From Roseococcus pinisoli (GTDB taxonomy: Bacteria; Pseudomonadota; Alphaproteobacteria; Acetobacterales; Acetobacteraceae), in contig NZ_JAHCDA010000001.1 in assembly GCF_018413645.1 (NCBI RefSeq), positions 1,674,001 to 1,738,000 on the forward strand: a stretch of DNA of 64,000 nucleotides, written 5' to 3'. The position numbers and the translations under genes were made by a program. The notes beneath the pieces were generated by a model that was not told the origin of the DNA, made no database searches, and was given only the letters and a program-made list of their open reading frames with translations. The stretch's first letter is position 1, and every line of letters starts with the position of its first letter. This document shows, in pieces, positions 49,357 through 58,157 of the stretch.

Positions 49357-49830
49357 TCAGGAGAACGCGACGGCGGTGATCTCGATCGCGCGGGCGCCGC
49401 CGGGGGCGGGCACCTCCACGCTGTCGCCCACCGACTTGCCCATCAGGGCCTTGGCCAGCGGGGAGGAGAGCGAGATCGAGCCCGCCTTCATGTCGGCCTC
49501 GTACTGGCCGACGATGCGGTAGGTCGTCTCCTTCTCGGTCTCCTCGTCGACGATGGTCACCCGGGCGCCGAAACGCACCTGGCTGCCGCTCATCTTGGAG
49601 ACGTCGATCACCTCGACCGAGGGGATGATGGATTCGAGTTCCGCCAGGCGGCCCTCGATGAAGGACTGGCGTTCGCGCGCGGCATGATATTCGGCGTTCT
49701 CGGAGAGATCGCCATGCGCGCGTGCCTCCGCAATCGCCACGATAATCGCGGGGCGCTCCACGGACTTCAGTTGCTTCAGTTCCTCTTCCAGCTTGGCCAG
49801 CCCTTCGGCGGTCATCGGGAACTTCTGCAC
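49357..49830 (-). CDS. greA: transcription elongation factor GreA
   Basis: A 157-aa factor that promotes cleavage of backtracked RNA in stalled RNA polymerase. The N-terminal coiled coil has the acidic tip [16 protein letters not shown], with conserved DLSENAEY, and the C-terminal FKBP-like domain includes [17 protein letters not shown] and [21 protein letters not shown]. The GTG at 49830 gives [11 protein letters not shown] and the standard length; the longer upstream frame overlaps carB and is rejected. carB-greA adjacency is conserved in many Rhodospirillales. The spacer upstream contains a 7-bp hairpin. Confidence 0.95.
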
Positions 49831-49862
49831 GGCAGGGTCTTCCTTCGCAGCAATGCCTCCCC

Positions 49863-49894
49863 CGTCGGCAACCCCGTTGCGAAAAACGCCGACG
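49863..49894 (-). other. hairpin in the carB-greA spacer
   Basis: CGTCGGC (49863-49869) and GCCGACG (49888-49894) form a perfect 7-bp stem with an 18-base loop that contains a T-rich stretch on the minus strand. It lies in the 106-bp gap between carB and greA and could be a weak terminator, an attenuating structure or an mRNA processing site for greA. There is no U-tract after it. Confidence 0.3.
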
Positions 49895-49936
49895 AGCAGG
49901 GAGGAGAGGGGAAGCTTGATCGCCTCCCCCCGAATG

Positions 49937-53182
<3,246 letters not shown>

Positions 53183-53185
53183 GGT

Positions 53186-53494
53186 TCAGGGCCTTTTGGG
53201 CGAGAAGAGAAGAAGGATGAGGAAGAGGGCGCCTTGCAGCGCGCCGGAGGCGAGGGCGGCGAAGAGCACCGTCTCGGTGAGGCTGGAGGCGTAGAAGACG
53301 AAGGGCAGGGCGAGCAGCCCGGCGAGGCCGATGCAGGCGAGGTTCACGGCCAAAGGGGGTACGGCCAGGGCGCGCCCCGCAGGCGGCACGCCGCGCAGCA
53401 GGCGCCACAGGGCCGGCGTGCCGAGTAGCGCCACCAGCAGGCCGATGGCGCTGCCATAGAACAGCGGATCCAGGTTGATCCTGACATCGCTCAT
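53186..53494 (-). CDS. small membrane protein (three predicted helices)
   Basis: A 102-aa protein with three hydrophobic segments, LFYGSAIGLLVALLGTPALW, PPLAVNLACIGLAGLLALPF and ETVLFAALASGALQGALFLI (extents approximate). The ATG at 53494 overlaps the stop of the neighbouring small gene (ATGA), and carB begins three bases after its stop, which supports its reality as a coupled gene of the carA-carB operon. No family is recognised. It is the second of two consecutive small membrane proteins; they could work as a pair. Confidence 0.6.
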   Translation of the reverse strand: MSDVRINLDPLFYGSAIGLLVALLGTPALWRLLRGVPPAGRALAVPPLAVNLACIGLAGLLALPFVFYASSLTETVLFAALASGALQGALFLILLLFSPKRP

Positions 53495-53748
53495 GATCCG
53501 CGCAGCTTCTGGCGCTGCCACATCGCTGTTCCGGCGATGGCGTGGCTCACCGCCACGAGGATGACCACCGGCCAGGGGCCGGTCCCGGCGAAGAGGCCGG
53601 AGACATGCAGCGCCGAGCCCATGAGGAGCATGGAGAGGCCGAGCGCGGCCTCCAGCCCCGGAATGATGCGGCGCAGCGCGGTGGTCAGCACGATCGCGAC
53701 CAGGATCGCGACGACGACCCCGCCGAACCAGGCGAAGGCGGCAGCCAT
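53491..53748 (-). CDS. small membrane protein (two or three predicted helices)
   Basis: An 85-aa protein with FAWFGGVVVAILVAIVLTT, EAALGLSMLLMGSALHVSGLF and WPVVILVAVSHAIAGTAMW as hydrophobic stretches and a basic tail QRQKLRGS. ATG at 53748 shares its A with the stop of the LysE gene (TGATG), and its stop overlaps the next start, so it is translated as part of the operon. No family is recognised. The similar size and position of the next gene suggest a two-component membrane unit, but the sequences are not obviously alike. Confidence 0.6.
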   Translation of the reverse strand: MAAAFAWFGGVVVAILVAIVLTTALRRIIPGLEAALGLSMLLMGSALHVSGLFAGTGPWPVVILVAVSHAIAGTAMWQRQKLRGS

Positions 53749-54395
53749 CAGCCGCGCACCCCGCGGAAGCTGTCGCCGAAGGCGAGCTTGGCCGCGATGA
53801 GCGCCAGGGCCACGCCCAGCACGTAGCGCTGCGCGGCGAGCCAGGCCGGCCGCGTGGCGAGGAAGCGGGCGGCGCCGGCCGCGCCATAGACCAGCAGCGC
53901 GTCGAAGACGACGCCGATCGCGACCTGCAGCCCGCCCAGGACCGCGCCCTGCACCAGCACGTTGCCGGCGGAAGCGTCGATGAAGGGCGGCAGCACCGCC
54001 ATGTAGAAGAGCGCGACCTTGGGGTTGAGCGCGGCGGTGGCGAAGCCCACCGCGAAGAGCTTCCCATTCGACTCGCGCGGCAGGCTGCGCGGCGCGAAGA
54101 TGGGCTCGGCACCGGGCTTCAGGCACTGCCAGGCGAGCCAGGCCAGATAGGCGGCGCCGCCGATCCTCAGCGCGTCCCAGGCATAGGGCACGGCGACCAG
54201 CGCCGCCGTGATCCCGGCCGCGGCGCAGAGCATGATTGCGGCCGAGCCGAGCGCGCAGCCGGCCAGCGAGATCATGCCGGCCCGGGTCCCCTGCGCCAGG
54301 GCGCGGCTGACCAGGTAGATCATGTTCGGCCCCGGCGTGACCGCGAGGCCGACCGCGAGCGCCGAGAAGACCAGCAGGGCTTCGATCGAGGGCAT
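53748..54395 (-). CDS. LysE-family amino-acid exporter, first
   Basis: A 215-aa LysE/RhtB-type exporter with six hydrophobic segments. The family signature GLAVTPGPNMIYLVSRALAQGTRAGMISLAG is at the N-terminus, and FATAALNPKVALFYMAVLPPFID lies in the middle. Such proteins export lysine, threonine, homoserine or similar amino acids. It is arranged in tandem with a paralogue, joined by a TGATG overlap. Presence between carA and carB suggests a link to amino-acid excess (arginine or its precursors), but the substrate is not known. Confidence 0.92.
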   Translation of the reverse strand: MPSIEALLVFSALAVGLAVTPGPNMIYLVSRALAQGTRAGMISLAGCALGSAAIMLCAAAGITAALVAVPYAWDALRIGGAAYLAWLAWQCLKPGAEPIFAPRSLPRESNGKLFAVGFATAALNPKVALFYMAVLPPFIDASAGNVLVQGAVLGGLQVAIGVVFDALLVYGAAGAARFLATRPAWLAAQRYVLGVALALIAAKLAFGDSFRGVRG

Positions 54396-55024
54396 CAGGG
54401 CCGGGCCTCCGTGGCCATGCGCGCCGCGAGGCCGGCCAGCACCGTCCCCATCAGCCAGCGCTGGATCCGGGCGAAGAGGGGGCGGCCGGCGAGAAAGGCC
54501 GCGACATGTGCCGCCGCCATCACGATCGCGGCATTCACCGCGACGCTCACGCAGATCTGCACGAGGCCCAGGGCCGCGGCCTGCCCGAAGACGCCGCCGC
54601 GCGCCGGGTCGATGAACTGCGGCAGCAGCGACAGGTACATCACCGCGATCTTGGGGTTGAGCAGGTTGGTCAGCAGGCCCATCGCGACGAGGCGCCGCCC
54701 GTCATGCGGCGGCAGGTTGCGGGGCGCGAAGGGCGCGGCGCGGCCGGTGAAGGCCTGCCAGGCGAGGTACAGGAGATAGGCCGCGCCGGCGAAGCGGATC
54801 GCGTCATAGGCCAGCGGCACCGTGGCCAGGAAGGCCGTGATGCCAAGCGCCGCGCAGAGCATGTAGAAGACGAAGCCCAGCGCCACGCCGATGAGCGAGA
54901 GCAGCCCGGCCAGACGCCCCTGCGCGATGGAGCGGCTGACGAGATAGACCATGTTCGGCCCCGGCGTGAGCACCATGCCGAGGGAGAGGGCGGCGAAAAG
55001 CAGCAGGGTTTCGGTCGCGGGCAT
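54395..55024 (-). CDS. LysE-family amino-acid exporter, second
   Basis: A 209-aa paralogue of the next gene, also with the signature LGMVLTPGPNMVYLVSRSIAQGRLAGLLSLIG and NLLNPKIAVMYLSLLPQFID. It shares the six-helix layout. The ATG at 55024 shares a base with the stop of the preceding 144-aa gene (TGATG). Tandem LysE genes may form a heteromeric exporter or reflect a local duplication; the two differ clearly in sequence, so duplication is not recent. Part of the carA operon. Confidence 0.92.
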   Translation of the reverse strand: MPATETLLLFAALSLGMVLTPGPNMVYLVSRSIAQGRLAGLLSLIGVALGFVFYMLCAALGITAFLATVPLAYDAIRFAGAAYLLYLAWQAFTGRAAPFAPRNLPPHDGRRLVAMGLLTNLLNPKIAVMYLSLLPQFIDPARGGVFGQAAALGLVQICVSVAVNAAIVMAAAHVAAFLAGRPLFARIQRWLMGTVLAGLAARMATEARP

Positions 55025-55458
55025 CAGCGGAACTCCGAACTGCCGGGCAGCAGGCCCAGCCATGAACGCCAGCGCCACGCCGCATTGGCGAGCCAGCGGG
55101 GCAGGGACGTCCCTGCCTCGTTCAGATCGAATTCCGCGGCCAGGGGAAGCCGCGCGCGGTCCGGCGTCCATTCGAGCGGATGGCCGATCTCGCCGAGCAT
55201 GGAGAGCTGCACCGCCCCCTCGATGGTGCCGCCCGCATCGCGCAGCACGACCAGGGCCGGGGCGTCGCCGCCCTGGCCCGGCATGGCGAAGAGCCGGGGC
55301 TGGCGGCAGACGGTCACGCTGTGACGGCCATCCGGGCTCTCGCTTTGCAGGAAGGGCGTGCCGCAGCCGAATCCCTGCTGGGGCCATGCCGCGCCGATCG
55401 CGAGCACCGCCAGCGCGGCGCCGGCCGCGCCCCACAGGAATGTCGGCCGGGCGTTCAT
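55024..55458 (-). CDS. hypothetical secreted or membrane-anchored protein
   Basis: A 144-aa protein not assigned to a family. The N-terminus FLWGAAGAALAVLAIGAAWP is one hydrophobic segment, either an anchor or a signal peptide, followed by GCGTPFLQSESPDGRHSVTVCRQPRLFAMPGQGGDAP and a C-terminal RWLANAAWRWRSWLGLLPG. Two cysteines in the exported part could form a disulfide. The ATG overlaps the SDR stop (ATGA) and the stop overlaps the LysE start, so expression is coupled on both sides. Probably periplasmic; function unknown. Confidence 0.7.
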   Translation of the reverse strand: MNARPTFLWGAAGAALAVLAIGAAWPQQGFGCGTPFLQSESPDGRHSVTVCRQPRLFAMPGQGGDAPALVVLRDAGGTIEGAVQLSMLGEIGHPLEWTPDRARLPLAAEFDLNEAGTSLPRWLANAAWRWRSWLGLLPGSSEFR

Positions 55459-56204
55459 CCCTGCGTGGAGAAGCCGCCGTCGATCGGGATCGCCGTCCCG
55501 GTGACGTAGGCCGCCTCATCGCTGGCCAGGAAGGCCGCGATGCCGAGGAAGTCGGAAGGGTCGCCCCAGCGGCCCACGGGGGTCCGGCGCAGCACGTTGT
55601 CGTGCAGGGGGCTGGAATACTGGCGCGCGCGGCGCGTGAGCTCGGTGTCGATCCAGCCGGGCAGGATGGCGTTGGCGGTGATGCCGTCCTTCGCCCAGGC
55701 CACCGCGATCGACTTGGTGTACTGCACGATCGCGCCCTTGCTGGCGCCATAGGCCGGCGAGAACTCCATGCCGAAGATGGAGAGCATGGAGCCCGTGCTG
55801 ATCACGCGCCCATGGCCGCTGGCCTTCAGCGCCGGATAGGCGGCGCGGGTGAGGCGCATCACGCTGTTGAGGTTGATCTCGAGCACCGTGTTCCACTGCT
55901 CGTCCGTTACCTCGTGCGGCGGGACGCGGAGATTGGTGCCAGCATTGTTCACCAGGATGGCGAGGCCGCCGCCCAGCGCCAGCGTCTCGGCCAGCACGCG
56001 GTCGGTCTCGCCGGGCTGGGCCAGGTCGGCCGCGATGGCATGGGCGTCGCCGCCCAGCGCCTTCAGCGCCGCGGCGTTCTTCTCGTGGTCCCGGCCGGTG
56101 ATGACGACGCGTGCGCCACAGGCCGCGAGGCCCCTGGCCAGGCCGAGGCCAATGCCGCCATTTCCGCCGGTGACGAGCGCGACGCGCCCGCTGAGATCGA
56201 ACAT
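55455..56204 (-). CDS. short-chain dehydrogenase/reductase (classical)
   Basis: A 249-aa classical SDR with NAD(P)-binding GGNGGIGLGLA, NNAGTN, and the catalytic Ser (STGSM) with Tyr-x-x-x-Lys in PAYGASKGAIVQYTKS, all present. The C-terminal PGWIDTELTRRA and DGGFSTQG match gluconate 5-dehydrogenase- and 2-deoxygluconate 3-dehydrogenase-like proteins. It follows carA by 19 bases. A sugar-acid or keto-acid reductase role is likely, but the link to carbamoyl phosphate synthesis is not obvious. The ATG at 56204 has AGGGAAGGATACGCGG upstream. Confidence 0.9.
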   Translation of the reverse strand: MFDLSGRVALVTGGNGGIGLGLARGLAACGARVVITGRDHEKNAAALKALGGDAHAIAADLAQPGETDRVLAETLALGGGLAILVNNAGTNLRVPPHEVTDEQWNTVLEINLNSVMRLTRAAYPALKASGHGRVISTGSMLSIFGMEFSPAYGASKGAIVQYTKSIAVAWAKDGITANAILPGWIDTELTRRARQYSSPLHDNVLRRTPVGRWGDPSDFLGIAAFLASDEAAYVTGTAIPIDGGFSTQG

Positions 56205-56223: not shown

Positions 56224-57609
56224 TCAGGCGGCGGGGTTCTTCCCCTGCGCCTTGTCCATCATCCCCACGAAACGGTGGAACAGGTAGTGGCTATCGCTCG
56301 GGCCAGGGCTGGCCTCGGGGTGGTACTGCACGGAGAAGGCGTGCTTCGCGGGGGCCGCGATGCCCTCGTTGCTGCCGTCGAAGAGGCTGACATGCGTCAC
56401 CTCCACGCCGGCGGGCAGGGACTTCGCGTCGACGGCGAAGCCATGGTTCTGGCTGGTGATCTCGACCTTGCCGGTCGTAAGGTCCTGCACGGGCTGGTTC
56501 GCGCCGCGATGGCCGCGCTCCAGCTTGTAGGTCTGCGCGCCGAGCGCCCGGGCCAGCAGCTGGTGGCCGAGGCAGATGCCGAAGATCGGCACCTCGGCCT
56601 CGAGCACGCCCTGGATGGCGGGCACGGCGTAGACGGCGGTCGCCGCCGGGTCGCCGGGGCCGTTGGAGAGGAAGACGCCGTCCGGCTTCTCGCGCAGGAT
56701 CTCCTCGGCCGTCGCCGTCGCCGGCAGCACGGTCACGGCGCAGCCGGCATCGGCGAGGCAGCGCAGGATGTTGCGCTTGGCGCCGAAATCGATGGCGACG
56801 ACCTTGTGGGTCGGCGCGGTCTGCTTGCCGAAGCCCTTGCCCCAGGACCAGACGGTCTCGTCCCACTGGTAGGACTGGCGGGCGGTGACCTCCTTGGCGA
56901 GGTCCATGCCCTCGAGGCCGGGCCAGGCCTTGGCCTGCGCCAGCAGGGCGTCGACGTCGAAGCGGCCATCGGCGGGGAAGCTCAGCACGCCGTTGGGCGC
57001 GCCGCCGTCGCGGATGCGGGCGGTCAGGGCGCGCGTGTCGACCCCGGAGATGCCCGGGATGTTGTGGCGCTTCAGGAATTCCTGGAGGTGCAGGGTCGCG
57101 CGGTAATTCGCGGGCTCGGTGACATCCTGCTTGATGATCAGGCCGCGCGCGGCGGGCGTGGCGCCTTCCATGTCCTCGACATTGGTGCCGACGTTGCCGA
57201 TATGCGGGAAGGTGAAGTTGATGATCTGCCCGGCATAGGAGGGGTCGGTCAGCGTCTCCTGGTAGCCGGTCATGGCCGTGTTGAAGCAGATCTCGGCGAC
57301 CTGGGTGCCGTGGGCGCCGATGCCCAGCCCCCAGAAGACCGAGCCGTCGTCGAGCACGAGGCAGGCGGTGGCGCCATCGGGCGGAAGGTTCGGCATGGTC
57401 GTGTCCTGAGAAGGGGCGGTCGCGCCGGTGGGCGCCGAGGTGAGGTCGGCGAGGGACAGGCCGGTGGCGGCGAGGATGACGGGCCAATGCTTGGCCGGGA
57501 TGGAGCGGGACTGCCGCCATTTCCGGACGGCCTCGGTCCCGACCTTCAGCTGGCCGGCGGCGGCCTCGGCCCCGCCCAGGAGGGCGAGGATGTCTTCCAC
57601 ACTGCGCAT
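56224..57609 (-). CDS. carA: carbamoyl-phosphate synthase small chain with N-terminal HTH domain
   Basis: Glutaminase subunit supplying ammonia to CarB. The 461-aa frame is longer than the usual ~390: residues 1-71 form an added helix-turn-helix module (VEDILALLGGAEAAAGQLKVG, TEAVRKWRQSRSIPAKHW) resembling Cro/CI-like domains; I recall a named carph-isopro domain of this type on some CarA proteins. CarA proper starts near MPNLPPDGATACLVLDDG; the GATase domain has nucleophile Cys346 in GICLGHQLL and QYHPEASPGP with the catalytic His/Glu. There is no Shine-Dalgarno at the ATG; the promoter is seven bases upstream, which would give a leaderless mRNA. An internal ATG at 57396 could yield HTH-free CarA. 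Confidence 0.95.
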   Translation of the reverse strand: MRSVEDILALLGGAEAAAGQLKVGTEAVRKWRQSRSIPAKHWPVILAATGLSLADLTSAPTGATAPSQDTTMPNLPPDGATACLVLDDGSVFWGLGIGAHGTQVAEICFNTAMTGYQETLTDPSYAGQIINFTFPHIGNVGTNVEDMEGATPAARGLIIKQDVTEPANYRATLHLQEFLKRHNIPGISGVDTRALTARIRDGGAPNGVLSFPADGRFDVDALLAQAKAWPGLEGMDLAKEVTARQSYQWDETVWSWGKGFGKQTAPTHKVVAIDFGAKRNILRCLADAGCAVTVLPATATAEEILREKPDGVFLSNGPGDPAATAVYAVPAIQGVLEAEVPIFGICLGHQLLARALGAQTYKLERGHRGANQPVQDLTTGKVEITSQNHGFAVDAKSLPAGVEVTHVSLFDGSNEGIAAPAKHAFSVQYHPEASPGPSDSHYLFHRFVGMMDKAQGKNPAA

Positions 57610-57616
57610 GGGCTAG

Positions 57617-57645
57617 ACTATGTGGGAAATCTTTTCCCAGTTCAA
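57617..57645 (-). promoter_or_regulatory. carA promoter with operator in the spacer
   Basis: On the minus strand: -35 TTGAAC (57645-57640), a 17-bp spacer and -10 CATAGT (57622-57617), seven bases before the ATG at 57609. The spacer is exactly the perfect inverted repeat TGGGAAA-N3-TTTCCCA (57639-57623). A protein bound there would occupy the promoter. The short distance from -10 to ATG implies a leaderless transcript. Confidence 0.65.
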
Positions 57646-57663
57646 GCAAGACTCAACTGGTCT

Positions 57664-57674
57664 GGGAAATTCCC
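57664..57674. promoter_or_regulatory. second TGGGAAA-type palindrome in the carA / gatB-yqeY-like intergenic region
   Basis: GGGAAATTCCC, a perfect 11-bp palindrome preceded by T so that it shares TGGGAAA with the carA operator; centres are 38 bp apart. It lies 31 bp upstream of the divergent GatB/YqeY-like gene and may serve as an auxiliary operator for carA, or as an operator for that gene. Confidence 0.5.
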
Positions 57675-57704
57675 TCCAGAATCACGATGCAAGGAATTCA
57701 GACG

Positions 57705-58157
57705 ATGGATCTGCGGAGCCGTTTCACCACCGAGCTGAAGACCGCGATGCTGGCCCGCGACGCCGCCACCACCGGCACGCTCCGCCTGATCACGGCCAAG
57801 TTGAAGGACGTGGACATCGCCGCCCGCCCCGGCCCGCCGGTCGATGAGCCCGCCATCATCGCGATGCTGCGCGGCATGGCGAAGTCGCGCCGCGAATCCG
57901 TCGAGCTCTACCGCCAGGGCGGCCGCGAGGAGCTGGCGGCGAAGGAGGAGGCCGAGATCGTCGTGATCGAGAGCTTCCTGCCGGCCCAGATGGACGAGGC
58001 CGGGCTGCAGGCGGCCGTCGCCGCCGCCGTGGCGGAGACGGGCGCGACGACGATCAAGGACATGGGCAAGGTGATGGCCGCGCTGAAGGCGAAGCACGCC
58101 GCGAGCCTGGACATGGCCAAGGCCGGTCCGGCGGTGAAGGCGGCGCTCGGCGGCTGA
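57705..58157 (+). CDS. GatB/YqeY domain protein
   Basis: A 150-aa protein of the GatB/YqeY family, related to the tail of the Asp-tRNA(Asn)/Glu-tRNA(Gln) amidotransferase B subunit and thought to bind tRNA. It has DLRSRFTTELKTAMLARDAATTGTLRLI at the start, an ESFLPAQMDEAGLQAAVAAAVAETGA helix set and the C-terminal KDMGKVMAALKAKHAASLDM. The ATG at 57705 has AAGGA upstream; an ATG at 57687 is an in-frame alternative. Divergent from carA through a 95-bp region with two palindromes. Upstream neighbour of dnaG in many Rhodospirillales, with rpoD beyond. Confidence 0.92.
   Translation: MDLRSRFTTELKTAMLARDAATTGTLRLITAKLKDVDIAARPGPPVDEPAIIAMLRGMAKSRRESVELYRQGGREELAAKEEAEIVVIESFLPAQMDEAGLQAAVAAAVAETGATTIKDMGKVMAALKAKHAASLDMAKAGPAVKAALGG

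Follow-up and report, generated by a model that had tools for sequence, protein, structure and literature searches.

Introduction

The closest described counterpart of the system considered here is PutA of Escherichia coli, at once proline dehydrogenase and repressor of a single target, putA/putP, according to the part of the source consulted (PMC8249747). For the gene itself the reference is E. coli carAB, whose control is attributed, in the consulted part of a second source, to PepA, RutR, PurR, ArgR and IHF (PMC6245113). Carbamoyl phosphate synthetase (CPSase) feeds both arginine and pyrimidine synthesis, and the balancing of these two demands is a classic question. We analyzed carA, encoding the CPSase glutaminase subunit, in a stretch of 64,000 nucleotides of the Roseococcus pinisoli genome (Acetobacteraceae; assembly GCF_018413645.1, contig NZ_JAHCDA010000001.1, positions 1,674,001 to 1,738,000), hereafter the window, whose own numbering is used throughout. 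Comparative evidence from the family indicates that CarA of the Acetobacteraceae is probably (roughly 85%, in our estimate) an enzyme repressing its own gene, i.e., a dedicated self-repressor, and the family-wide fusion of a Cro-type domain to the enzyme, paired with a single dedicated operator, suggests that one protein makes up the control circuit.

Results

A Cro-like domain and palindromic operators at carA

The elements concerned, all on the minus strand, are the following:

56224-57609: carA, CPSase glutaminase subunit with an N-terminal Cro-like domain, 461 residues, ATG at 57609
57439-57600: carph-isopro (Cro-like) domain, CarA residues 4-57, NCBIfam NF046037; the predicted recognition helix spans residues 24-34
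57382-57438: linker, about residues 58-76, between the carph-isopro domain and the CPSase small-chain domain
57617-57622: -10 hexamer CATAGT, followed by seven bases and the ATG
57623-57639: operator 1, perfect palindrome TGGGAAAAGATTTCCCA, exactly filling the 17-bp spacer between -35 and -10
57640-57645: -35 hexamer TTGAAC
57663-57679: operator 2, degenerate here (CTGGAGGGAATTTCCCA), with a single intact half-site

The first-pass annotation of the window, made from the letters alone, had placed a helix-turn-helix module at CarA residues 1-71. The module is real, NF046037 matching residues 4-57 at 67.7 bits for the N-terminus alone and 62.2 bits for the full length (curated cut-off 38), but its extent has to be narrowed, the remainder up to about residue 76 being a linker that is predicted to be flexible (predicted local distance difference test, pLDDT, below 50 for residues 58-72). 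P22_Cro (PF14549) and YdaS (PF15943) remained below the gathering threshold on the N-terminus (22.3 bits each, vs. 30.2 and 30, respectively), and by its profile scores the domain resembles these two families, yet is not filed under either. In the structure model (mean pLDDT 82.4) the top-ranked fold matches were phage Cro proteins. The enzymatic part matches TIGR01368 (CPSase small subunit) over residues 82-452 at 459.6 bits (cut-off 307.35), and Cys346, His430 and Glu432, which we take to be the catalytic triad, are invariant across 25 aligned CarA proteins. CarA therefore appears, by its sequence, to hold in a single chain the complete enzyme and, judging from family similarity and predicted fold, the DNA-binding-type domain that characterize a PutA-like trigger enzyme. 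A paralogue sharing the domain had been offered as an alternative operator binder; this candidate was rejected, since no further carph-isopro domain exceeds the cut-off of 38 in this genome, the next-best score being 24.8 bits.

The perfect inverted repeat reported to fill the spacer between TTGAAC and CATAGT was confirmed at the coordinates given above, as was the end of the -10 hexamer seven bases before the ATG, and an essentially leaderless carA mRNA starting close to 57609 is predicted. The only exact copy of TGGGAAA-N3-TTTCCCA in the 4.79-Mb genome is the one at carA. When the 77-bp intergenic region was shuffled 20000 times by mononucleotides, arms of 7 bp arose with a 3-base loop in 79 shuffles and with a loop of any length from 0 to 8 bases in 557; from the window alone, a chance palindrome is only modestly unlikely.

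Conservation across the Acetobacteraceae

Profile searches of 120 genomes of the family, sampled from 102 genera, returned carA over cut-off in 113 and the carph-isopro domain over cut-off in 113, the domain being located at carA in 112 genomes spanning 97 of the 102 genera. In genome G116 the domain is absent from carA and occurs solely as a short protein of a different type. Eight genomes were not used as positives, either because carA was missing or cut (G019, G026, G039, G069, G075, and G110) or because it was domainless and served as control (G029 and G116). The 154 genome loci and 80 named loci (234 in total) were reduced, by dropping 25 duplicates of the -90 to +60 sequence, to 209 distinct loci (153 genome and 56 named).

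In 207 of these 209 the CarA core follows the domain in frame and uninterrupted, the exceptions being G088 (frame break) and G035 (contig break); in G033 the reading frame stops inside CarA. Translation beginning only at 57396, which had been named as a possible objection, is disfavored because residues 4-57 are conserved and run without interruption into the CarA core. The core GGAA-N5-TTCC was found within 220 bases upstream of the start in all loci, 204 exact and five with one mismatch, so that a conserved operator at the gene's own promoter joins the two trigger-enzyme features described above. Relatives bearing the helix-turn-helix without the palindrome, set beforehand as refuting evidence, numbered 0 of 209. 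Controls on the same loci gave one match for the reversed motif, one for a 4-base spacer, none for 3-, 6- or 7-base spacers, and 0 and 1 for two in-gene windows; conservation over 209 distinct loci against controls of 0-1 rules out a chance palindrome. The exact full operator TGGGAA-N5-TTCCCA is present in 123 loci. As for the second palindrome, claimed to lie 38 bp away from the first, a second site (core with at most one mismatch) does occur in 193 loci, in 131 of them at a spacing of 38-40 bp, but in the window it is degenerate and the distance is 40 bp start to start.

Genome-wide, the 120 genomes contain 114 exact full operators in 76 genomes, of which 93, in 73 genomes, are at carA. Eleven of the 21 located elsewhere belong to G072, and the other 10 equal the total of the reversed-pattern control (10). 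Because exact operators are nearly confined to carA, their binder seems to be devoted to regulating carA, the obvious candidate throughout the family being the domain within CarA itself. As a separate observation, none of the eleven operator-like palindromes of G072, possibly a repeat, is at carA, where the sites are imperfect.

Domainless carA genes and the wider class

Thirty-two domainless carA genes were available for comparison: three from the Acetobacteraceae (G128, G029, and G116) and 29 from other families of the class, the latter being the highest-scoring of 87 non-family genomes with carA over cut-off. The exact core was absent within 400 bases upstream in 32 of 32, and the palindrome without the helix-turn-helix, the converse refuting case, was encountered only as the one-mismatch cores considered in the Discussion. 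The tree counts two separate losses of the domain within the Acetobacteraceae, one in G128, which lies within a group of support 100 whose other members keep the domain, and one in G029 and G116, placed apart from it in a poorly supported neighborhood. The G128 locus (L251), which has lost the CarA domain together with the exact operator core, belongs to a 1.7-Mb genome, the other sampled members of the genus having 2.6-4.6 Mb.

In a search of the wider class the domain exceeded the cut-off in 51 of 289 genomes, four of them Acetobacteraceae. A spread of the CarA fusion across the class was considered and rejected, as no convincing CarA core was seen in the 28 loci examined from the other 47 genomes, although two of these loci (L175, truncated at 82 residues, and L196, 47 residues) left little sequence to assess. 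A Pfam scan of two such class loci returned one Mitofilin match and, for the other, only a sub-threshold Cro/YdaS match. In these other Alphaproteobacteria (L177, L180, and others of L173-L201) carph-isopro lies at the N-terminus of mostly long non-CarA proteins, at least one of them mitofilin-like.

Promoter layouts

Two layouts were distinguished. In the near type (149 of the 209 loci) the proximal operator begins no farther from the ATG than -35 (about -30). Here the operator is immediately preceded by TTG in 133 loci, and in 142 the -10 ends 6-8 nucleotides before the ATG. Shine-Dalgarno-like matches (at most two mismatches) are not enriched here (29 of 149, vs. 53 of 149 in a control stretch), so that the leaderless transcript and the lacking Shine-Dalgarno sequence suggested for the window are, as far as sequence can tell, supported by the near-type loci at large. 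In the far type (60 loci) the operator is farther upstream and a Shine-Dalgarno-like match is found in 43 (control 14 of 60). In the 53 far-type loci with the operator beyond -55 the right arm TTCCCA could itself supply a -35-like hexamer; in 36 of them TA-n3 stands at the corresponding distance (controls 3 and 1). Protein bound between -35 and -10, or over the -35, normally blocks RNA polymerase at bacterial promoters, and since the operator overlaps the predicted core promoter in both layouts, the arrangement argues for repression. Leaderless mRNAs are reported for Gluconobacter oxydans (62 of 1344 assigned starts), and carA is not mentioned in the main text of that RNA-seq study, insofar as it was consulted (PMC5756330).

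Recognition-helix residue 33 and the outer base of the operator

The residue following the KWR motif of the recognition helix, residue 33, is Gln in 199 of the 209 loci. The majority outer base of the operator in these is G in 191, C in three and tied in five, and in the ten non-Gln loci G in one, C in eight and tied in one; with the six ties left out the association has a Fisher p of about 2e-11, uncorrected for relatedness. Within the domain no column is more informative than 33, whether by mutual information or by z-score; residue 24 (z-score) and residue 35 (raw information) come next. To find more variant genera, 397 genomes were searched for DNA encoding KWR and then Ala, Thr or, limited to TCN codons, Ser; 10 matched, two of them already known, and the eight new loci, all in genera already sampled, were not counted among the 209. 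The outer base is other than G in genera g96 (Ser) and g68 (Ala/Thr) and mixed in g83 (Thr), where locus L345 has one core mismatch in each of its two sites. Residue 33 is thus a candidate specificity residue, for which the covariation is supporting, not decisive.

Neighboring genes

Further features of the window are listed below:

57687-58157, plus strand: yqeY, divergent from carA (PF09424, 141.9 bits)
49937-53182, minus strand: carB, CPSase large subunit, downstream of carA on the same strand, named from the appearance of its translation only

The divergent yqeY is found in 171 of the 209 loci, and because operator 2 sits just before its first ATG it may be co-regulated with carA or controlled through this operator. 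From 49357 to 56204 a short-chain dehydrogenase, a LysE-type translocator, an apparent second translocator, carB and greA share the strand of carA, with which they may form one operon.

Discussion

Proposed mechanism

We infer that the Cro-like domains (residues 4-57) of two CarA molecules pair and that they bind the TGGGAA-N5-TTCCCA operator. Bound within the spacer between -35 and -10, as in the window, CarA would make the promoter unusable by RNA polymerase. The second operator that most relatives carry about 40 bp upstream would let two CarA dimers bind cooperatively. In this way carA would be kept at a set level, perhaps along with the following genes as far as carB.

An extension of this scheme, attractive yet doubtful, is that the whole CPSase reads its own promoter, so that transcription would directly reflect its allosteric state, with no need for a set of separate regulators. 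With one Cro-like domain per CarA, a CarAB heterodimer would bind one half-site, a dimer of heterodimers two and a tetramer of heterodimers four, which equals the four half-sites of the tandem operators. The assembly state of the E. coli enzyme is set, in the consulted part of the source, by ornithine, leading to the tetramer, and uridine monophosphate (UMP), leading to the heterodimer (PMC6245113), and such responsiveness invites an allosteric link to transcription. The direction seen in E. coli is nonetheless opposite to what simple end-product repression requires; here, then, either the effect would be reversed or free CarA, without CarB, would be the repressor.

Alternative explanations

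Several observations weigh against self-repression by CarA. The second site is degenerate in the window itself, and the 209 loci are distinct in sequence but not independent in descent. The fold matches of the domain are weak by E-value, none reaching 0.001, and the Cro-like fold is also listed on the enzymes MPnS and HppE, meaning that such a domain on an enzyme need not imply DNA binding. One-mismatch cores occur within 400 bases upstream of five of the 32 domainless carA genes, G128 included; as the reversed core, with up to one mismatch allowed, turns up in 14 of the 209 domain-bearing loci, these five look like background, though not zero. The covariation rests on few changes, about five of residue 33 and six of the base on a FastTree tree from which G033, G035 and G088 were left out (CarA core too short or frame broken); three of the residue changes are accompanied by a full base switch, one by a mixed state (G083) and one by none (G065, Ser with GGG). 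The base also switched without a residue change in G074, G080 and G153 (Gln with CGG), and the mixed Thr genus g83 is likewise among the exceptions. As only one independent pair is found on supported branches (four on all branches), significance is unreachable and none is claimed after phylogenetic correction.

A first alternative is a separate, unlinked transcription factor binding the palindromes, with the CarA domain serving otherwise, e.g., contacting CarB, as the folds on MPnS and HppE would permit and given that binding by CarA is deduced from sequence. Such a factor predicts neither the near-confinement of the exact operator to carA, nor the disappearance of the exact core from all domainless carA genes, the two separate losses included, nor an outer base that tracks a residue of the CarA recognition helix, and we consider it improbable. 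That CarA, once bound to the operators, activates carA, or has its main effect on yqeY, would accord with the place of operator 2 directly before this often divergent gene, but operator 1 occupies the spacer between the two promoter boxes in near-type loci and covers a -35-like box in most far-type ones, which makes this explanation very unlikely. Finally, the frequency of comparable palindromes in shuffled intergenic DNA (the 557 cases above) might recall a chance or RNA feature accompanied by a relic domain, but the core is present in every locus with controls near zero, and in the predicted leaderless mRNA the operator would be untranscribed, leaving this option a negligible probability. 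Repression of carA by its own product consequently remains the reading we favor.

Comparison with known systems

The N-terminus of CarA is a member of NF046037 carph-isopro, a family entry giving a name without a function, and no paper on this name was found in the open-licence literature; nor was a fusion of this domain to CarA, or CarA as a DNA-binding regulator, found described there (titles and abstract starts). In predicted fold, and with weak profile similarity, the domain resembles the phage Cro proteins of N15 (6on0/2hin), Xfaso 1 (3bd1) and P22 (1rzs), which are standalone repressors, whereas in CarA it is fused to a housekeeping enzyme; the fusion possibly arose by domestication of a phage-type repressor.

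The DNA-binding domain of PutA is a ribbon-helix-helix, unlike the Cro-like helix-turn-helix predicted for CarA. In the portion of the PutA source consulted, the two proteins are alike in joining an enzyme and a domain of DNA-binding type in one chain, and in having essentially one genomic target, their own divergent promoter region; they differ in that PutA is catabolic and relieved by its substrate, while CarA is biosynthetic. With E. coli carAB the likeness, again within the part of the source consulted, lies in the transcriptional control of the same gene and in the involvement of a trigger enzyme, PepA. There, however, control is shared among several separate proteins and no DNA-binding part of CarA is named (PMC6245113), while the Acetobacteraceae promoter has a single operator type and, as its candidate binder, one domain fused to the enzyme.
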